From NCBI RefSeq assembly GCF_023973145.1, contig NZ_CP099546.1:868001-932000 (forward strand): DNA of 64,000 nucleotides. The letters are read 5' to 3'. Shown one piece after another: positions 18,724 to 31,354 of this stretch. This stretch comes from Natronosalvus vescus (lineage in GTDB: Archaea > Halobacteriota > Halobacteria > Halobacteriales > Natrialbaceae). The notes beneath the pieces were generated by a model. That model did no database searches, was not told where the DNA came from, and saw nothing but the letters and a program-made list of their open reading frames with translations. Position 1 is the first letter of the stretch, and each line of letters opens with the position of its first letter. The position numbers and the translations under genes are program-made.

Positions 18724-21700
18724 TCACTCACCAGGCTCGTAGGCCCCGAACAGCGGGAACGAGTCGTTGAACGCCCCGGTCTCGAGGATCGCCGGGTCGT
18801 CCGCGAGGTGGCTGTCCTCGTCGATCACGCGGTCGTCGTTGAACCGGAGATCCGTGTTCAGCCCGCTCGCGAGCGCGTTCAGGTTCGCGAAGCCGTCGTC
18901 GTCGGTGTCGGCGCTGCCGAGGAGGATCACGGCACCGCCCTCGGTTCGGTATTTTCGGAGGGCGATGATCTCGCCCATCGTGAGTTCCCGCGCTGGTGCC
19001 GTCACGAGCACCGCACGCGGCGTCGTCTCCTCGCGAGGGAGCGTCCGCTCGAGGTCGTTGACCTGCCGGAGTCGCGTGCCGACCCCCTCGAGGTAGCGCA
19101 TGAAGTACTGACAGCGCTCGAGGGAGATCGAACCGGGGGCGTTGAACTGCCCCTGACCACCTGCGATCAGGACGTCCCCGTCGGTCTCCGACAGCGAGTC
19201 GATGAGGTTCGCGAGGAACGGGAAGTTGCCGTAGCCGCTCGTGTCGACGAACCCTTCGGCCCCCTCGTACTGTTCGTGGATCAAGAGCCCGCCGACAAGT
19301 GCGAGGTTCTTGCGTTCGTCGACGCCGACCAGTGGAACGTCGTCGTAGGCGACCCCGCTCGAGCCGCGTTCCTGGGTCGCTGTCTGACTCGCGTACACCG
19401 GGACACGCTCGGGGCGAAGGCGGCCACCGTCGCGGCCCCGGCGGCTTCGGACGCTGCGGGCCTCGGGAACGAACAGCGATTCGACCGGGTCGTTCCGGAT
19501 CTCCTCGAGAGCGTCGAAATCGGCCCCACTCCAGACGCCGATGCCGTCGGCGAGGGCGGCCTCTTCGATTTCGGCCCACGCGTCGTGTTTCGAGAAGCCC
19601 GAGGAGTAGATGCGGGCGTGGCCCGTCTCGATCATCTCGCGGTTGTAGTTCACCGTGTACTGGCCGGCGGGGCCGGCGTCGAAGTCGTCTGGGTCGTAGT
19701 ACATGTACATCAACAGCCGACCGTAGTTACCCCGTTTCGGCTCGACGGGATCGAACGTGAGCTTGACGCGCCGACCCTCGACGTCGCTCTCGCCGGCTTG
19801 CGCGTCGGGTGCCAGCCGCTCGAGCGAGTACGCGGTGGCGTTCGCCCCCCAGGCGTCGAGGTGCTCGAGGTCGTCGATGCCGAACCACTCCTCGGGATCG
19901 TTCGTTGCCGTTCCCGTTTCCGGCGTGTCGATGCCGATGTGCCGGACGACGTCCCGGTAGTCGAACTCGCTGTCGAACTCCACCTCGGCGGTATCGCCGT
20001 CGAACACTCGAACGACCCGGCCGTAGTACTCGCCGCCCTGTTCGAAGGGGATGGCGATCGACTTCTCCCGGGTTTCGAAGTACGGGAAGTCCGTATTGAG
20101 GTTCGACGTGGCGATGTTGAAATCACCCTCGTCGTTGACCTGATCGGAATTGAAGCGGAACGCGAGATCGAGCGCGTCGGCGATCTCGTTCAGGTTCTCC
20201 GTCTCGTCGAAGCCGACGGCCTCGTTGCCCTGGCCACCGAAGTCAGACTGATCGAACAGGAAGAGTGCGCCTCCGTCGTCGACGTACGCGGAGAGGGCAT
20301 CGCGCTCGGCCTGGGTGAACGCCTCCTCGGGGGTCATGACGACCAGGCCGTCGCCGTCCTCGAGTGTTGGGCCGTCTACCTCGCCGAAGTAGTCGAAGCC
20401 GGTGTTGAAGTTCCCGCTCGTCGGCACGAAACTGGTTCCGGCATTGTTCGTCCCGTCTTCGACCTGGTCGGCGTTGAACCGGAACGGGAGGGTGAGGTGC
20501 TCGGCGATCGCGTTCAGATTGTCGGTCTCCTCGTTGATGTGCTCGGACTCGTCGAACAGCAAGAGCCCGCCGCCGTCGTCGACGAACGTGGAGAGGGCGT
20601 CGAGTTCGGCTGATGTAAACGCCTTGCTCGGGGACGCCGTCGCCAGCACGGCCGCCGTCTCGAGCGCCCCGCCGCCTGCAAAGAAGTCGAACGCCTCGTT
20701 GACGTTCGTCGTCTGTGGGATGAAGGGTGCCCAGGCGCTGTTGTCGTCGTCGACGACCTGATCGGAATTGAAGCGGAACGCGAGGTCGAGCGCGTCGGCG
20801 ATGGCGTTGAGTTCTGGTGTCGAGTCGCCGCCGAAGTTCGCCTCGTCGTGGAGGAACACCGCGCCGCCGTCGGTGACGAACGCAGAGAGGGCGTCGAGGG
20901 TGTCGTCGGTGAAGTCCTCTCCGGGCGAGGTGATCACCACCAGGTCGGCGTCCGCGAGGCCGCTCTCGAGGTCGCTCGTAGCCTCGACGGTAAAGCCGCG
21001 CGATTCGGCGAGGGTGCGGAGCTGACTGTAGTCCTCGAGGCCCAGTGCCTGGCCGTGGCCCTCGTCGTACAGTACGGTTCCCGTCCCGCCGAGTCGATCT
21101 TCCCAGGCGTTGACGAGGAACCGTCGGTTGGCGTCGACGTCACTCTCGTCGGTGGCGAAGTCGGCACCGACGCCGACCACGGAGCCGTCGACGGCGACCA
21201 GCGGAATGTCGACGTCGTCGGGGTAGGCCACGAAGCCGTTCGGGTCGTGAGCGACCTCGGACTCGATCGTGACGGCGTTCTCGTCGCTGGTGAACGTGAT
21301 AGTCGCCGTATACTCCTCCTGTGGCGGGTTCTGGAGGCCTTCGATCGTCACGCTCGAATCGCCGACGATGGACGTCGTGAAGATACCGCTGAGGTCGAAG
21401 GTGGCACTCGAGCCGCTATAGCTTCCGCTGTTGACGCTGATCTCGCTCGTGTCCGGGCCGCTGCTCAGTTCCCGCGTGAGGACGACCGTCACGTCGTCGT
21501 TGGTCAGCCCGTCGAGGCTCGTTCCCTCGGGGTACTCGACGGTAATCGTGTCGACCTCGCCCTCGCCCTCGACGTCGACGTCGTCGAACGACCAGGTGTG
21601 CGTCGCCGTGGCCGACGGCGTCGAGGGGACGGCGGCGAGCGTCTGCTCTCCGGCACCGTCGCTCGCATCCTCGTTCTCGGCCGTCGGCTCGGCCCAGACG

Positions 21701-22782
21701 GCGACCAGGGAGTCGTCGGTCAACGGTGTTCGGTCGGCGGCCAGGAGACTCGCCGTCGAGAAGAACTCGAGTTCCGGCACGGAGCCGTCGCCCTCGAGCA
21801 GGTCGTCGGTCGTGGCGAACGCGTAGCCCGCGTCCTCGACGGTCGACGCGAAGTCGGTGAACTTACCAGCGTTCCAGAAGGTGTCGTGTGCCTCGTCCCA
21901 GAGGATCGTCGGCGTGTCCGCGGGACTCGACGCCGTGAGGTCGTCGAGGACGTTCACGATGAATTCGGCGTTGGCATCGCTGAAGTTGTCGAAATCGCTG
22001 TCGGCGGCGAAGCCGGCGCCGCCGAAGCCGACGACCTGGCCCGCTTTCGCGATGAGCGGAATCGGGTCGTCGTCGTACAGGTACGCGCCGTCGTCCTCGC
22101 CGTCAATGTTCTCGGCCGTCGGCTCGGCCCAGACGACGACGTACGCCGGGTTGGTCAGGGCGGTGCCGTCGACGTCGACCAAGCTCGCCGTCGAGTCGAA
22201 CGTCAGTTCCGAGAGGTCGGTCTCGAGCAACGACTTGGTCGCTTTCAGCTCGTAGCCCGAGTCGGCGGCGTACTGGCGGAACGACTCGTAGTTCTCGAGG
22301 GCCAGCCCGTGGAACTGGTCGTGGCCCTCGTCCCACAGCACCGTCCCCTCGCCGCCGATTTTGTCGTCGAAGCAGTTCAGGAGGAAGTGTTCGTTCCCGA
22401 AACGAAAGCCGCCCTGGTCGTCGCTGACGAAGTCGACCGAGCCAAAGCCAAGGACGTTCCCGTCCTCGGAGACCAGCGGAATGTCGTTGTCCTCGTAGAC
22501 GACCGTCTCCGGGCCGTCGGCCGTCGTCTCGAAGTTCTCCGCAGTAGGTTCGGCCCAGACGACCACGACGTCGTCGTCCGCGAGTTCGCTCTCGCCGTCG
22601 GCGGCGATTTGGCTCGCCGTCGAGTAAAACGAGAGGTGAGTGAGCTGGCCGTCCTCTGCGGGTACCGTCGACGACTCGAGTGCACCGGCCTGGGGGCTTC
22701 CGAGTGCGAGACCGCCGGCTGTGGCCCCGAGCATCGACAGAAACGATCGCCGCCTGAGATTTTCGACCCCGTTGGGTTCCAT
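18724..22782 (-). CDS. Giant Tat-exported protein: repeated DUF4350/GATase-like modules plus staphylococcal-nuclease domain
   Basis: A 1352-residue secreted protein. Residues 1-35 are a Tat signal (RRRSFLSMLGATAGG). Three N-terminal units carry DxxVVVWAEPTAEN (about 70-83, 213-225, 357-370) with VLGFG / VVGFG strands and (V/I)LWDE(G/A)H. An Ig-like beta domain spans about 400-510. From 560, class-I-glutamine-amidotransferase-like (DUF4350-type) units repeat, each ending FRFN(S/A)DQV (about 668, 764, 871), with a fourth at the C-terminus (LRFNDDRV, about 1312). Residues 918-1085 are a complete SNase domain: D930 in FDGDT, R947, D952 and E955 in RHIGIDTPE, and R1022 in NYGR. The spacing equals that of staphylococcal nuclease D21, R35, D40, E43 and R87. 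There is no membrane anchor. Extracellular nucleic-acid degradation is a sound inference. The roles of the other modules are unknown. Confidence 0.85.
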   Translation of the reverse strand: MEPNGVENLRRRSFLSMLGATAGGLALGSPQAGALESSTVPAEDGQLTHLSFYSTASQIAADGESELADDDVVVVWAEPTAENFETTADGPETVVYEDNDIPLVSEDGNVLGFGSVDFVSDDQGGFRFGNEHFLLNCFDDKIGGEGTVLWDEGHDQFHGLALENYESFRQYAADSGYELKATKSLLETDLSELTFDSTASLVDVDGTALTNPAYVVVWAEPTAENIDGEDDGAYLYDDDPIPLIAKAGQVVGFGGAGFAADSDFDNFSDANAEFIVNVLDDLTASSPADTPTILWDEAHDTFWNAGKFTDFASTVEDAGYAFATTDDLLEGDGSVPELEFFSTASLLAADRTPLTDDSLVAVWAEPTAENEDASDGAGEQTLAAVPSTPSATATHTWSFDDVDVEGEGEVDTITVEYPEGTSLDGLTNDDVTVVLTRELSSGPDTSEISVNSGSYSGSSATFDLSGIFTTSIVGDSSVTIEGLQNPPQEEYTATITFTSDENAVTIESEVAHDPNGFVAYPDDVDIPLVAVDGSVVGVGADFATDESDVDANRRFLVNAWEDRLGGTGTVLYDEGHGQALGLEDYSQLRTLAESRGFTVEATSDLESGLADADLVVITSPGEDFTDDTLDALSAFVTDGGAVFLHDEANFGGDSTPELNAIADALDLAFRFNSDQVVDDDNSAWAPFIPQTTNVNEAFDFFAGGGALETAAVLATASPSKAFTSAELDALSTFVDDGGGLLLFDESEHINEETDNLNAIAEHLTLPFRFNADQVEDGTNNAGTSFVPTSGNFNTGFDYFGEVDGPTLEDGDGLVVMTPEEAFTQAERDALSAYVDDGGALFLFDQSDFGGQGNEAVGFDETENLNEIADALDLAFRFNSDQVNDEGDFNIATSNLNTDFPYFETREKSIAIPFEQGGEYYGRVVRVFDGDTAEVEFDSEFDYRDVVRHIGIDTPETGTATNDPEEWFGIDDLEHLDAWGANATAYSLERLAPDAQAGESDVEGRRVKLTFDPVEPKRGNYGRLLMYMYYDPDDFDAGPAGQYTVNYNREMIETGHARIYSSGFSKHDAWAEIEEAALADGIGVWSGADFDALEEIRNDPVESLFVPEARSVRSRRGRDGGRLRPERVPVYASQTATQERGSSGVAYDDVPLVGVDERKNLALVGGLLIHEQYEGAEGFVDTSGYGNFPFLANLIDSLSETDGDVLIAGGQGQFNAPGSISLERCQYFMRYLEGVGTRLRQVNDLERTLPREETTPRAVLVTAPARELTMGEIIALRKYRTEGGAVILLGSADTDDDGFANLNALASGLNTDLRFNDDRVIDEDSHLADDPAILETGAFNDSFPLFGAYEPGE

Positions 22783-23609
22783 GGGTCTACATTTTGGTTT
22801 TCGGATAAAAACGTTATTAATACTTTTTCAAGTATGGTTGTAGTTCGTCGATTCCCGACCTATTTCTTGGGTGATGAGGGTGAGACTATAGGAACCTCGG
22901 ACTGAAAGAAGGTGTCGATACCTCGAGCGTCGACGGTGGTCGGGGGTACGTGCCGGGTCGGCGCTGGCAGGGGTGCGTGAAGGCGAGTCCGACGGGAGTG
23001 ATGAGCGACCGCTCGAGAGGCATTCGAGTAGCACGGTGGACGTAACCAAACGGGACGAAGCCGACGCTCACGACCGATGAGAGCGCGGGGAATATCAATG
23101 ATGTGGTGGCTGATAAGTCACGAGGTCAGCGTTGGCAACGACAGACCCCACCCCCGCGCGTATAGGGGAACGCCCTCGGTGAAGGTAATCTTGTTGGCTC
23201 CGTTCTCGTATCCTACACATCAGGTCTCTCGCCTGCAGTTAGAGGTGGCACGTGTCGTCAATTATGCCGCTGCAGGCGACATCGATACCGTTCGCCTCGA
23301 GCGGACTGCCGTCACGTGCAGGCAACCCGGTCGGATTACGCTGTCTCCGACGCCGATGGGAAGCACTCCGCTCGCGACTTTCTGGGGAGCGCGTGCTGAG
23401 ACGAGAACGCCCACTCCGGTTGCGTGTTTCGCGAGCGGACGCGGAACCTATCGGAGCCACTGCACGTCACTGCACAGTTGATCGCCAGCCGTGTCGGCGA
23501 TCAGTGTGTAACTCGTTGCAGTTGTCACTATCTCTTGCTGGGATTCGGTCTCGAGGTCGTTCGCGAGCGATGTAGTTTCCCACTCGTATCGATCGACTCG
23601 AGATGGCGG
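22783..23609. other. Gene-poor region, 827 bp
   Basis: No frame has a convincing start, codon bias and protein composition. Short frames on both strands look like random translations of GC-rich DNA. The left edge holds the promoter of the giant nuclease gene. The rest may be decayed coding sequence, but I cannot match any piece to a family. Confidence 0.5.
22805..22811 (-). promoter_or_regulatory. TATA box of the giant nuclease gene
   Basis: On the minus strand TTTTTAT lies 23-29 nt upstream of the ATG at 22782, inside an AT-rich block (22795-22835) that contrasts with the GC-rich surroundings. The spacing predicts a leaderless transcript. Confidence 0.55.
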
Positions 23610-23837
23610 CTACAACTCGCCCCCAGTTCGCTTGAATCGCATTATGATGGCAAACACGAATGCGAGTGTGAACAGTATGCCACCGCCGACCCTGAGGACG
23701 CCCGCAAGCGATGGGAGATAGTACATCGGGTCGATCCCCTCAAACGCCAGCTGTATACGCTGGCGAGCCCCAAACGCAATGACGATACCGTGTACAGCGA
23801 CGAGAGCCAGCATCCACCGAGTCGTCTTTTGATCCAT
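23610..23837 (-). CDS. Small two-helix membrane protein
   Basis: A 75-residue protein with two hydrophobic segments (WMLALVAVHGIVIAFGA and LRVGGGILFTLAFVFAIIM), separated by a short loop with IDPMYYLPSL and ending RFKRTGGEL. The composition and the clean topology suggest a real small gene. An AT-rich TATA-like stretch (TATATGAG on the minus strand) lies about 23-30 nt upstream. Function unknown. It stands alone in a gene-poor stretch. Confidence 0.6.
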   Translation of the reverse strand: MDQKTTRWMLALVAVHGIVIAFGARQRIQLAFEGIDPMYYLPSLAGVLRVGGGILFTLAFVFAIIMRFKRTGGEL

Positions 23838-24161
23838 AGGTGGTGCTGCAAGACGAACTCATATAGATCTACTACCATTTCGATGTGGGATTGCAGGGAT
23901 AGGTACTGAACGAGTTTCGTTTCACAGGGCTGACGTGGATGGGTGGATACGGATACCGGCTCCACGTTACTCGAGATTCTGGTTCATCGCTCGCTCAAAA
24001 CGGAGTGACGCGACCGGTGGGTGGCCGTCCAGACAGATGGGGGAGTTGTTATATATCGGCGCGTGATGTGCGTGGTGTGCGTGAATCGCTCGAAGCGAGC
24101 GAACCACTTCGGCACGATCTGTGAGAAACGGATGGCTCGAAAGCGACGGTTCGAACTCGAG
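23838..24161. other. Intergenic region, 324 bp
   Basis: Contains a probable TATA element for the small membrane protein at its left edge and another AT-rich box (TTATATAT) near 24047-24056. No gene, RNA or clear repeat is seen. Confidence 0.4.
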
Positions 24162-24419
24162 TTAGGCACCGTGCTCGGCCAGCCACTTCTGGAACGGGGA
24201 ACAGTCTTCGATGTGATCCGCGAGGCCCATCAGATGGTGAATTCGATTGGCGTAACTCTCGATGCCGTACTCAGCGCTCCCGACGAGCGCACTGATTTCC
24301 TCCCGATACTTCCTGGCACGGTAAGAGGCGTTCCCGTTCTCGAGGTCGAGAATCTCGCCTAGATCCTTGCTCGCTCGATAGGTCGTCGCCGGGTGGGTGC
24401 CCAAGTGAGGGGAGGTCAT
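24162..24419 (-). CDS. Small hypothetical protein
   Basis: An 85-residue, mostly helical protein (TTYRASKDLGEILDLE, YRARKYREEISALVG, YANRIHHLMGLADHIED). It has no membrane segment, Cys pair or recognised motif. The amino acid composition is natural for a haloarchaeal protein, and the frame is free of the Arg/Pro-rich look of shadow frames, so it is probably real. It lies between a gene-poor stretch and the tRNA-Arg region and could be a leftover of an integrated element, but nothing in the sequence proves that. Confidence 0.5.
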   Translation of the reverse strand: MTSPHLGTHPATTYRASKDLGEILDLENGNASYRARKYREEISALVGSAEYGIESYANRIHHLMGLADHIEDCSPFQKWLAEHGA

Positions 24420-24586
24420 CGATCACCCTACCCGACTCGCTCGGCAACGTTCTTCGGCGTCTCTCTGATCCCCGACTCAGCACGTTCGCTCGTCGCCTCG
24501 AGGCCACGGTTTGAAACGGCCTGGTTTTGGGGGCGCTTCCAGGGCTGGTCGTCGACGTCGGCAGCTCGAGGCGTCCGTCCACGGAT

Positions 24587-24640
24587 ACAATTGTTCGCCG
24601 TCGCCCAAGCAAAGGCACGATGGGATTCGAACCACGGTCG
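24587..24640 (-). repeat. Partial copy of the tRNA-Arg 3' half and its downstream flank
   Basis: Bases 24614-24633 are identical to 24715-24734, the T-arm and acceptor end of the tRNA-Arg gene. The next bases match again after a one-base deletion. The similarity continues into the flank (24587-24603 against 24693-24709) with two mismatches and a 5-base length difference between the blocks. The copy has no 5' half and cannot form a tRNA. It may be an attachment-site scar of an integrated element or a decayed tandem duplicate. Confidence 0.65.
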
Positions 24641-24712
24641 CAGACAAGCTGCTCTCTGATTCGAATCCCACGAGAGCCGCTAAGCACGGCTCACAATCGT
24701 TCGCCGGCGTAG

Positions 24713-24816
24713 CGGGCACGATGGGATTCGAACCCACGACCGTCGGATGTCTTCCCCTCTCGCACCCGCGACAGGGATAGAAGTCCGACGCTCTATCCAG
24801 ACTGAGCTACGTGCCC
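24713..24816 (-). tRNA. tRNA-Arg (anticodon TCT) with a 29-nt intron
   Basis: Read on the minus strand, the acceptor stem GGGCACG/CGTGCCC, D stem GCTC/GAGC, anticodon stem TCGGA/TCCGA and T arm with TTCGAAT all pair. The discriminator is G, and CCA is not encoded. The anticodon loop becomes CTTCTAA after removal of bases 24749-24777. The splice region forms a canonical bulge-helix-bulge: CTTC pairs with GAAG (4 bp), flanked by three-base bulges TAT and ACA, each cut after its second base, with CCC/GGG as the inner helix. The intron is at position 37/38, as usual in archaea. This tRNA reads AGA (and AGG by wobble). Confidence 0.95.
24749..24777 (-). other. Bulge-helix-bulge intron of tRNA-Arg(TCT)
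   Basis: A 29-nt intron lies between nucleotides 37 and 38 of the mature tRNA. Its 3' end GAAG pairs with the exon CTTC, forming the 4-bp central helix recognised by the archaeal splicing endonuclease. Both bulges are three bases long. Confidence 0.9.
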
Positions 24817-24883
24817 TCGCCCTCGTATCGTCGGGCAACCGGTATAAGCAGTGGGGATTTCGCCCTCCCACCGACCAGGGTTG

Positions 24884-25666
24884 CTACCCCGGCAGCAATC
24901 CATTCAGATCCGGATGCGCTCCCATATCCCCGCCCGTCAACGCAACACGATCACGCCGACGTTGCCACTGCTCGTGGCGCACGTAAACGTGAACGGGAAC
25001 CGACTCGAGCCCCAGCAGAGATGCCAGGGCCAGCCGTTCGTGGCCACTGTGGAGAATACACCGCCCGTCGCGGCCAACGTTCACCCGGATCTCCCCTTTC
25101 GCGGCCGGCAGATGTGGATACGGGTCGGCGATCGTCGGATCCGTCACGGTTCGATACTGTCGCCGATCCGTGATCGACACCGCACCCCGCGTCGCGATAT
25201 CAGTGAGATACCACTCGAGGGCGTTGCGATAGCCAGCTCCCTCGTCTCGCCCACCATCGGCCGTGACAGTCGCTCGAGTCGGGTCGTCTGCCACTTCCAC
25301 GTGTGACGCACGTCGAACGAGTCGCGCAACCGCTCGATAGCGCTCGGTCTCGAGAAACCGTTCGGTCTCGAGATCCCAGCGACCACGTTCGACGGCCTGG
25401 ACGTGTGGCGGCGAGGCCGCCTCCAGCGCTCGCCTGCGGGGCTCCGGCAGGGCGTGTCTGATCGCCCCCGGTGATAGCTCGAGAACCCGAAACGGCTCGA
25501 TCGACCCGGCGTGGTGACGCCCGCAGTGCCACCACGTCTGCCAGCGCAGTCGCTGACGGTGATACCAGCGAGCGAGGGCGATACCCGAGTCGGGGACGTC
25601 CGCCTTCCGCTCCGTCTCGGGCTCCGACTCCTCGAGGGTGGGCACTGACGCTTCGACGGTTCCCAT
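24884..25666 (-). CDS. ParB-like nuclease-fold domain protein
   Basis: A 260-residue protein. The N-terminal half is Arg/Trp-rich (ALARWYHRQRLRWQTWWHCGRHHAG). The C-terminal half ends with GEIRVNVGRDGRCILHSGHERLALASLLGLESVPVHVYVRH, which matches the ParB/sulfiredoxin-like core: a strand, then the G-(x)-HR/HERL-type motif, a helix and a final strand. In related haloarchaeal proteins this domain appears outside chromosome partitioning, and there is no parA here. The frame continues upstream past 25666, but its sequence there is shadow-like, so the ATG reading MGTVEASVPTLEE is chosen. It lies 67 bp from the tRNA-Arg gene on the same strand. Confidence 0.7.
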   Translation of the reverse strand: MGTVEASVPTLEESEPETERKADVPDSGIALARWYHRQRLRWQTWWHCGRHHAGSIEPFRVLELSPGAIRHALPEPRRRALEAASPPHVQAVERGRWDLETERFLETERYRAVARLVRRASHVEVADDPTRATVTADGGRDEGAGYRNALEWYLTDIATRGAVSITDRRQYRTVTDPTIADPYPHLPAAKGEIRVNVGRDGRCILHSGHERLALASLLGLESVPVHVYVRHEQWQRRRDRVALTGGDMGAHPDLNGLLPG

Positions 25667-28673: not shown

Positions 28674-30014
28674 TCACTTCGAGAACAGACTCGTGTGAAC
28701 CGGTGCGAACGTCTCGTTCTCGGGCACCGCCGAGTGGACGGTATCGGTGATCGACCGGGCTTGTAAGCCGTCCTCGAGCAGTCCGGCGAGCGGCGGGCCG
28801 ACGGTTTCTGGTTCGACCAGAAAGGCGTCGTGGCCGTGGTCGGACTCGATGACGTGGTGGGAGACCGGAACCCCCGTCTCGCGACACGCCGCGGCGAGCG
28901 CCTCCGCCTGTTCGACGGTGAAGTGCCAGTCGCCGGTAAACGACAGCAAGAGGAGTTCACCCTCGAAGGCGGCGAGCGCGTCGCCGTCGGAGCCATACCC
29001 CGACGAGAGGTCGAAGTCGTCCATCGCTCGCGTTAGATAAAGGTAGCTGTTGGCGTCGAACCGGTCGACGAAGCGCTCGGCCTGGTAGTCGAGGTAGGAT
29101 TCGACCTCGCGATAGGGGAAAAACCCACCTGCAGGATCCGGTGGGCCGTCACGTGTCGCCTCTCGGCCGGCCGCTCGTCGGCCGAACTTCCGATCCATCG
29201 AGGACTTCGAGAGATACATGATGTGACCGAGCTGTCTCGCTCGAGCGAGCCCGTCAGTTGGACCGACGGCGTGGCCTGGCTCGTCCGTATCGCCATAATC
29301 GTCATTATTATCATCGCCATCATCGCCATCATCGCCGTCACAGTTGGCCCCGCTGTCGTAGTAGTGACCGCCGTTCCAGTCCGGATCGCTCGTGATGGCC
29401 CGCCGGGCGACCGCATCGAGGGCGAGACACTGCGGGTCGAGTCTGGGGGCTGTTGCAACGGCGGCAGCGACCTCGACGTCGTCGGGGTACCGCCGAAGCC
29501 AGTCGAGGACGTTCATCCCGCCGACCGATCCGCCGACGACTGCTCGCAGGCGGCCGACGCCGAGTTCGTCGAGCAGCCGTCGCTGGGCGCGCGTCCAGTC
29601 GCCGACGGTGACGGGCGGGAAGTCGGTGCCGTAGGGCTCGCCGGTCTCCGGGTTACTGCTCGAGGGTCCCGTCGTCCCGTAACACGAGCCCGGAACGTTC
29701 GCGCAGACGACGTAGTACTCCGTGGTGTCGATCGCTTTCCCTGGGCCGACGACGTCGCCCCACCAGGCGCGAGCCTGCCCGGCCGTTTCGTCACCGACGT
29801 CGGGTCGGCGCGCAACGTGTGCACTTCCCGTGAGGGCGTGACAGACGAGAACGGCGTTACTTGCGGGAACCTCCCGCTCGCCCATGGCGGATCCCGGCCC
29901 CGCTCGCCCTCCGTCGAACTCGCCGTACGTCTCGTAGGCGATCTCGAGGCTGGGGATCGACTCCCCGCATTCGAACGTGAACGATCCGATGTCGACGGTG
30001 TCTCTGGTCGTCAT
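28674..30014 (-). CDS. metX: Homoserine O-acetyltransferase
   Basis: A 446-residue alpha/beta hydrolase that makes O-acetylhomoserine for methionine synthesis. It has the nucleophile elbow GGSVGG, with the Ser in [18 protein letters not shown], and family motifs [21 protein letters not shown], and [14 protein letters not shown] near the oxyanion hole. The catalytic Asp is in FTGDWHFT and the His in [10 protein letters not shown] poly-Asp insertion (about residues 222-245, [11 protein letters not shown]...) interrupts the region between the core and the lid, and its DNA is a trinucleotide-like microsatellite (29290-29341). The ATG at 30014 is used. A GTG at 30023 overlapping the metY stop as GTGA is an alternative. 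Cotranscribed with metY. Confidence 0.93.
29290..29341. repeat. CATCGC-type microsatellite inside metX
   Basis: An imperfect run of GCC/ATC triplets (cat-cgc units) in the plus strand codes for the poly-Asp/Gly insertion of MetX. It is an in-frame low-complexity tract that could change length by slippage. Confidence 0.7.
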
Positions 30015-30019
30015 GGGCG

Positions 30020-31354
30020 TCACTCCTCTCCCAGGGCAGCCATCGCCGCGTCGATGGCCCCCTCGAGATCGGCCAGCAAATCTGCGGGGTCTTCGATCCC
30101 GACCGAAAGACGCACGAGGTCGGAGGTAACACCGGCCTCTGCCTGTTCCTTCGGGGTGAGCTGGCCGTGGGTCGTGCTTGCGGGGTGGATGACCAGCGTC
30201 TTTGCGTCGCCGATGTTCGCGAGGAACTGGGCGAGATCGACCGATTCACAGAACGTCTTGCCAGCGTGGTAGCCACCTCGCTCGCGGTCGCCACCCTCGA
30301 GACCGAAGGCGATCATCCCGCCGTAGTCAGACAGGTAGCGGGCGGCGTTGCCGTGGGTCGGATGGCTCTCGTGTCCGGGATAGGTGACCCAGGCGACGTC
30401 GTCGTGATCACGGAGGTAGTCAGCGACGATGGCGGCGTTCTCACAGTGTTTCTCGATCCGGAGGGGCAGGGTCTCGAGCCCCTGTATTGTCTGCCACGCA
30501 TCGTGGGGTGATTGCTGGTTGCCGAGGCTGCGCGTCGAGCGGTAGCGGACGGCCGCTGCCAGCGGCGCGTCGGCGAAATCCCGGGCGAAATCGACGTCGT
30601 GATAGGCGTGGTTCGGCCCGGCCACTTCGTCGTAGCCGTTGGCACCCCAGTCGAACGTGCCGGCGTCGACGACGACCCCGCCAACCGTCGTTCCAGAGCC
30701 GTGGATCCACTTCGTCGTCGACTCCCAGACGACGTCAGCGCCGTGCTCGCAGGGCCGACACAGCGCAGGGGTAGCAAAGGTGTTGTCGACGACCAGTGGG
30801 ACGCCGTTGTCGTGGGCGATGTCGACCAGTCGATCGAAGTCTGGCGTCACCAGGGAGGGGTTGCCGATCGTCTCGACGTGCACGAACGCGGTGTCCTCGT
30901 CGATCGCCTCGGCGTAGGCGTCGTACTCGAGCGTCGGGACGAACTGGGTGTCGATCCCTCGTTTGGTAGCGGTCTTCGCGAAGTAGGCAGTCGTCCCGCC
31001 GTAGGTGTCCGTCGAGCAGACGACGTTGTCGCCCGACTCGGCGAGGACGAGGACGATCGAGTCCAGCGCTGCCATCCCGCTGGCTGTCCCGACGGCACCG
31101 GCCCCGCTCTCGAGCGACGCCAGCCGATTCTCTAGTGCCTCGACCGTGGGGTTGCTGATCCGGGAGTAGATGTGCCCCTCGCGCTCGAGGGCGTACAGTT
31201 CGGCAGCGGTGTCGGCGTCGTCGAAGGTGTAGGAGGTCGTCTGATAGATCGGCACCACCGGCGCGCCGGTCGTCGGATCGCCGTCGTACCCCCCGTGGAT
31301 GCTCTGGGTGGCAAATCCCGGCGTCGATGGCCCGTCGCTCCCGTCGTCACTCAT
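30020..31354 (-). CDS. metY: O-acetylhomoserine sulfhydrylase / trans-sulfuration PLP enzyme
   Basis: A 444-residue Cys/Met-metabolism PLP enzyme that converts O-acetylhomoserine plus sulfide to homocysteine. Key motifs: [20 protein letters not shown] near the PLP site, YGGTTAYF, the Schiff-base Lys in [12 protein letters not shown], and a C-terminal [19 protein letters not shown]. The long insertion after residue 220 ([28 protein letters not shown]) is characteristic of MetY/MetZ rather than short cystathionine synthases. Its stop codon lies 5 bp before the metX ATG (or overlaps its GTG), so the pair is one operon. An inverted repeat at its promoter may be a regulatory site. Confidence 0.92.

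Follow-up and report, generated by a model that had tools for sequence, protein, structure and literature searches.

A 64,000-nucleotide stretch of the genome of the haloarchaeon Natronosalvus vescus (Natrialbaceae; contig NZ_CP099546.1, positions 868,001 to 932,000), referred to here as the window, encodes a large protein which is probably an extracellular nuclease of the staphylococcal nuclease (SNase) type, exported by the twin-arginine translocation (Tat) pathway and carrying the halves of one module nested within each other. The arrangement that we favour, with some reserve, is that of a single GIFT-like domain recursively inserted in one loop of its own copies, to a depth of three shells. 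The nested core would have passed as a whole from one nuclease gene to another by recombination, as in the chimeric relative L045, and elsewhere the module would have been inserted in the nuclease itself.

A hidden Markov model (HMM) of the module, 229 positions long, was built from single-copy relatives. The N-terminal (N) half of the module has the motif VVWAEPTAEN and ends after TVLWDEGHGQF...GYTVEATNDL; the C-terminal (C) half runs from ADAVVVTSP to FRFNDDQV...F. The model matched the window protein in two N-only and two C-only copies and in two complete ones, of which the first is split by an insert. They are arranged as N1 N2 (N3 C1) C2 C3, SNase, complete module (Table 1), and N3 is interrupted by an immunoglobulin (Ig)-like domain. 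The sequence VWAEPTAEN occurs at residues 75, 217 and 362, and FRFNxDQV occurs exactly at residues 669, 767 and 875. These repeats are beyond chance. A first-pass annotation of the gene had reported FRFNxDQV as fourfold; the motif is indeed repeated, but only three copies are exact, the fourth being the degenerate LRFNDDRV of the C-terminal module. The VVWAEPTAEN units, which had been left without a family, turned out to be the N halves of a DUF4350/GIFT-type module. Order and balance of the halves fit a domain inserted into itself twice. The insertions would all have occurred at one fixed loop, between strand beta2 and the next helix, with the Ig-like domain placed in N3, and the halves would pair as N3-C1, N2-C2 and N1-C3. 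Domain-insertion proteins in general carry one domain in a loop of another, whereas here host and insert would belong to the same family and be nested to as many as three levels, always at the same site.

The same balance was found in the relatives, with one protein counted per genome. The numbers of N and C halves are equal in 29 of 30 multi-copy relatives (27 of 28 in the window's family and both of those outside it; 15 three-level and 14 two-level), a figure inflated by kinship among them. Within the family, 12 of the 28 genomes have a three-level protein in one open reading frame (ORF), one (G043) has it over two overlapping ORFs, 13 have the two-level form N (N C) C, and in G120 the order is N N C C around a central Ig-like domain; the contig of G117 (L004) is partial. 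The two three-level proteins from outside the family (G318 and G397) are both balanced. N-only copies stop at HMM positions 132-143 (n=43, median 133) and C-only copies begin at positions 119-139 (n=44, median 135.5), the extremes 143 and 119 being pieces of one frameshifted gene, and the split point is identical in two- and three-level forms. Repeats usually grow through tandem complete copies, and no such tandem was seen upstream of SNase in the 30 multi-copy proteins. The nuclease gene is distributed over two overlapping ORFs at L040 (G043), in the module region, and at L046 (G115), in SNase, through frameshift or sequencing error; L040 was counted over both ORFs, L046 for its upstream part only.

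A comparison of two relatives suggests how the nesting spread. L048 (931 aa) has one module ahead of SNase, while L045 (1515 aa) has the order N N F C C, F being the complete module. Both proteins share 79% identity over 693 residues comprising the C half, SNase, the C-terminal module and the tail. The signal and the N1 start of L045 also closely match L048, and about 590 extra residues lie inside that single module. In L045, the first ~105 columns of N1 are L048-like and the remainder is window-type, while the first ~60 columns of C3 are window-type and the remainder is L048-like. Because N1 and C3 are mosaics, the nested core, as judged from these sequences, entered a single-module gene through recombination within the outer halves. 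Identities between the window type and L045/L046 were 0.52 for N1 and 0.60 for C3, compared with 0.77 and 0.75 within the window type; for N2, N3, C1 and C2 they were 0.58, 0.67, 0.62 and 0.65, compared with 0.63, 0.67, 0.63 and 0.69. N1 and C3 therefore change together. In another relative, L042, exactly N3 and C1 are missing and the Ig-like domain occupies their place, whereas N1, N2, C2 and C3 are retained (identities 0.76, 0.64, 0.64 and 0.77).

An AlphaFold2 (AF2) model of residues 38-905 had a predicted local distance difference test score (pLDDT) of 80.7 and a predicted template modelling score (pTM) of 0.58. The underlying alignment (A4) comprised 30 of 41 first modules, the window protein, L072 and L073; the full single modules could be aligned to the innermost module only, and L072 and L073 alone inform the outer shells. 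Fragment rows that were tried for deepening the outer-shell alignment were misplaced by MAFFT and dropped. Of 50 structural matches, 7 spanned model positions 151-179 to 759-768, from where N2 begins to where C2 ends, and aligned over 126-164 residues; none reached C3. Nested pairing is thus supported by the L048/L045 pair, by the loss in L042 and by the AF2 spans from N2 to C2. The model supports the N2-C2 pairing, short of proof; the N1-C3 pairing we infer by exclusion, and it is the weakest link of the nesting case.

The halves might also be paired otherwise, as N1-C2 and N2-C3, or be swapped between molecules to form dimers or fibres. This would be compatible with N N F C C when taken by itself, and the pTM of the nested model leaves room for it. 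We nevertheless regard it as unlikely in view of the N2 to C2 ranges and the joint loss of N3 and C1; moreover, stepwise insertion at one site yields nested pairs and leaves each intermediate able to fold, and proteins of one, two and three levels are all represented. A slightly lower probability is given to an ordinary secreted nuclease with decorative slippage repeats, in which the equal counts would simply have been inherited from a common ancestor. The 30 proteins include many close relatives and do not stand for 30 independent events, but the three balanced forms (NNFCC, NFC and NNCC), the filled and empty pair L045/L048 and the occurrence of the module in SNase elsewhere speak for repeated insertions, as does the split point common to two- and three-level forms.

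The nuclease domain belongs to a known fold and is unremarkable within it. In the window protein, PF00565 was found over its cut-off at residues 946-1085 (E 9.9e-7; 29.6 bits, cut-off 21), and a genome-wide search with PF00565 returned this protein as sole match (34.8 bits). Staphylococcal nuclease was matched at E 3e-12 in a PDB profile search. The AF2 model of residues 913-1352 (33 rows; pLDDT 95, pTM 0.92) was calculated from an alignment (A3) of 32 of 45 core references and the window protein. Residues 4-173 of the model (916-1085 of the protein) superposed on 1snc with Z 17.4 over 132 residues at 2.1 Å, and model and superposition together identify an OB-type nuclease fold. Structural matches of this model were filled by SNase chains; the C-terminal module was barely probed there. 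The catalytic D930, R947, D952, E955 and R1022, which we take to correspond to D21, R35, D40, E43 and R87 of Nuc, were retained in 32 of the 33 aligned rows, the exception being a 478-aa ORF of L113 that has no SNase domain. Pfam, PDB profile, superposition and the five residues thus agree with the intact SNase domain of the first-pass annotation, and the alignment with haloarchaeal homologues proposed there came out in its favour. The model of the calcium-activated nuclease EcnA (NF047969) covered residues 918-1085 but fell short of its cut-off (86.3 bits, cut-off 180). 1snc and EcnA share the SNase fold and the catalytic residues with the window protein, but are single-domain.

A whole GIFT-like module inside SNase, after an EEWEGL stretch, was observed in L049, L050, L055-L057, L068, L100 and L101, with two modules in L050. 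This was read from the sequence for L049 and L050 and from domain positions for the rest. The insertion point presumably lies near the staphylococcal nuclease loop after E43. This is another form of nested insertion within the family.

With Pfam, the whole protein exceeded the cut-offs of DUF4350 (72.2 bits, cut-off 30.4), ABC_transp_aux (92.2, cut-off 34.7) and IFT52_GIFT (66.2, cut-off 27.2), all located in the middle of the protein. The C-terminal module alone remained below the Pfam cut-offs (DUF4350 25.2, cut-off 30.4), and the best E value for N1 and N2 was 0.23. No cysteine is conserved across 30 modules, any column having Cys in at most 1 of 30. Amidotransferase chemistry is therefore unlikely from the sequences, and the modules look non-catalytic. 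The innermost module as a whole was matched by residues 89-298 of IMPa from Pseudomonas aeruginosa (5kdv; Z 13.2, 183 residues, 3.4 Å), which differs in its 12% identity, in its single copy and in its attachment to an M60 metallopeptidase. The GIFT domain of IFT52 (5fmr) was matched with Z 8.7 by structure and E 7e-4 by sequence. IFT52 GIFT, GldG and DUF4350 share the beta-alpha core of the C half and likewise have no catalytic triad, but they are single-copy and belong to a cilia or gliding context, and no VVWAEPTAEN extension was found in them. The name GIFT combines GldG and intraflagellar transport, according to the available text of PMC10191852. Foldseek returned no match at E <= 0.001 with the 38-905 model. 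An alternative, close to the first-pass annotation, is a multi-activity machine in which the modules are enzymes, either class I amidotransferases or sugar-processing. The Pfam matches to the GATase-like group (DUF4350, ABC_transp_aux, DUF4159 and ThuA) and the peptidase E and cyanophycinase folds (Z 7-8) are in line with it. We consider it highly improbable, given the lack of a conserved cysteine and nearest matches to the non-catalytic IFT52 GIFT domain and the IMPa N-terminal region. Of the GATase-like modules flanking SNase, the likeness to the superfamily is supported and the amidotransferase machinery is not.

The N-terminus of the protein carries the twin-arginine motif RRRSFL and then a hydrophobic stretch, in agreement with the export predicted earlier. 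Its only cysteines are at positions 137 and 1224, so there is none before 137 and no lipobox, and its composition is strongly acidic (270 D+E, 63 K+R). The pattern RRx[FLMV] was present in 76 of 88 module-bearing ORFs, a count from which L071-L073 are omitted because they duplicate L044, L036 and L039; among the 12 motif-less ORFs, several are partial or start inside a gene. The Tat pathway transports already folded proteins. This route would suit nested domains because the outer shells close only once the inner parts are made.

By analogy with the haloarchaeal protein Hvo_1477, the window protein is probably a Ca2+-dependent nuclease acting on extracellular DNA. The exported enzyme would hydrolyse DNA or RNA outside the cell and so help in the use of extracellular DNA as phosphorus source, while the non-catalytic modules would tether it to a polymer, the cell surface or DNA. 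The number of shells may tune the reach or ligand binding of the secreted nuclease. The extracellular nucleic-acid processing suggested in the first-pass annotation gains support as a likely role from Hvo_1477, a putative lipoprotein of the SNase family, whose deletion lowers the growth of Haloferax volcanii on DNA, mainly as phosphorus source (PMC3929857, available text). Both are haloarchaeal exported SNase-family proteins, export of the window protein being predicted from its signal. DUF4350/GIFT modules do not appear in Table 5 of that paper (PMC3929857), and no lamin-tail family was among the Pfam matches of the window protein.

Possible, though doubtful, is a role in the matrix or biofilm, in which the protein would bind extracellular DNA and its nuclease would trim the matrix instead of feeding the cell. 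Ig-like domains are shared with adjacent surface proteins in four relatives, and SslE, which like IMPa is an M60 protein, binds DNA and is found together with extracellular DNA in biofilms (PMC8881592), the region matched here being no more than a candidate for that binding. The strong acidity of the window protein disfavours charge-based DNA binding. The Ig-like insert of N3 is the sole copy in the host genome; in relatives the domain also forms a tail domain and occurs in surface proteins encoded nearby. At L034 (11259-13988), L035 (10956-13565), L039 (11037-13844) and L041 (10942-13752), the nuclease gene is directly followed by an ORF for a surface-type protein with two Ig-like copies. The repeats of these proteins match CarboxypepD_reg, in a Pfam search on L034 only. 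In the window protein, no Pfam family exceeded the cut-off for the Ig-like domain, and the PKD-type tail domains of L045/L048 had no Pfam support.

Several points weigh against a nested, exported nuclease with a role in DNA utilization. The pTM of the nested model is just 0.58, and the structural rows report first and last aligned residues only, N2-C2 being read from ranges and N1-C3 being without direct view. In G096 (L041) an apparent in-frame deletion left unequal N and C counts (1 of 28). Hvo_1477 has a different architecture, being a small putative lipoprotein of 327 aa with a lipobox and a lamin-tail region (PMC3929857, available text). No conserved neighbours pointing to a pathway were found in L032-L070: save for reading-frame shadows of the nuclease gene, no flanking ORF of the window had relatives beside the homologues. 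PF00565 was detected in 51 of 125 genomes of the window's family and had no match in 74, and the function is therefore dispensable, and not universal, in the family.

A GTDB pattern scan yielded 47 loci, haloarchaeal throughout as far as titles name the organism. The N1-N2 query matched in 102 of 391 genomes of the class, and among the matches listed tandem N1-N2 was confined to the window's family, G318 and G397. In the host genome (3.84 Mb, one contig) a second gene of this kind was not found. With the proteins of G318 (L124) and G397 (L125), three-level nesting extends to two further haloarchaeal families. The identity of L124 to members of the window's family, 64-67%, suggests gene transfer.

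Literature searches on domain nesting, on GIFT/IFT52/GldG and on haloarchaeal secreted nucleases found nothing on this architecture, a search for DUF4350 in haloarchaea gave no hit, and the arrangement around the nuclease appears new by that measure. If the nesting is true, the proteins with one, two or three shells, together with the empty and filled pair and the variant that lost a shell, form a ready series for folding questions, such as how a domain folds when it closes only after two of its own copies have folded inside, and why the Tat route is used. Simple repeat or domain annotation fails here, the outer N halves being invisible to Pfam. For haloarchaeal ecology, the proteins would add a large, variable class of nucleases, exported by prediction, beside Hvo_1477.

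Table 1 Features of the nuclease gene and its product (positions in the window)
Feature	Residues	Position	Strand	Basis
Whole ORF, multidomain SNase protein predicted to be exported	1352 aa from ATG	18724..22782	(-)	frame open
Tat-type signal region (RRRSFL, hydrophobic stretch, QAGA)	~1-36	22675..22782	(-)	extent judged by eye
N1, N half of outermost module	53-191	22210..22626	(-)	module HMM 1-137
N2, N half of middle module	196-329	21796..22197	(-)	module HMM 1-133
N3 first part, innermost module	342-376	21655..21759	(-)	module HMM 2-36
Ig-like beta insert in N3	392-514	21241..21609	(-)	low pLDDT in AF2
N3 second part	515-604	20971..21240	(-)	module HMM; AF2 pLDDT ~88-97
C1, C half of innermost module	605-701	20680..20970	(-)	module HMM to 229
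C2, C half of middle module	707-799	20386..20664	(-)	module HMM 136-229
C3, C half of outermost module	806-902	20077..20367	(-)	module HMM 135-229
SNase domain (D930 R947 D952 E955 R1022)	913-1095	19498..20046	(-)	Pfam, PDB profile, AF2, alignment
Complete C-terminal module, directly after SNase in family core	1117-1345	18748..19434	(-)	module HMM 9-229, AF2

Upstream of the nuclease gene, the region 22783-24900 has a lower G+C content and no convincing gene among the ORFs listed. Farther along the window, adjacent genes for a MetX-type homoserine acetyltransferase and an O-acetylhomoserine sulfhydrylase (28674-31354, minus strand) form an ordinary methionine pair.

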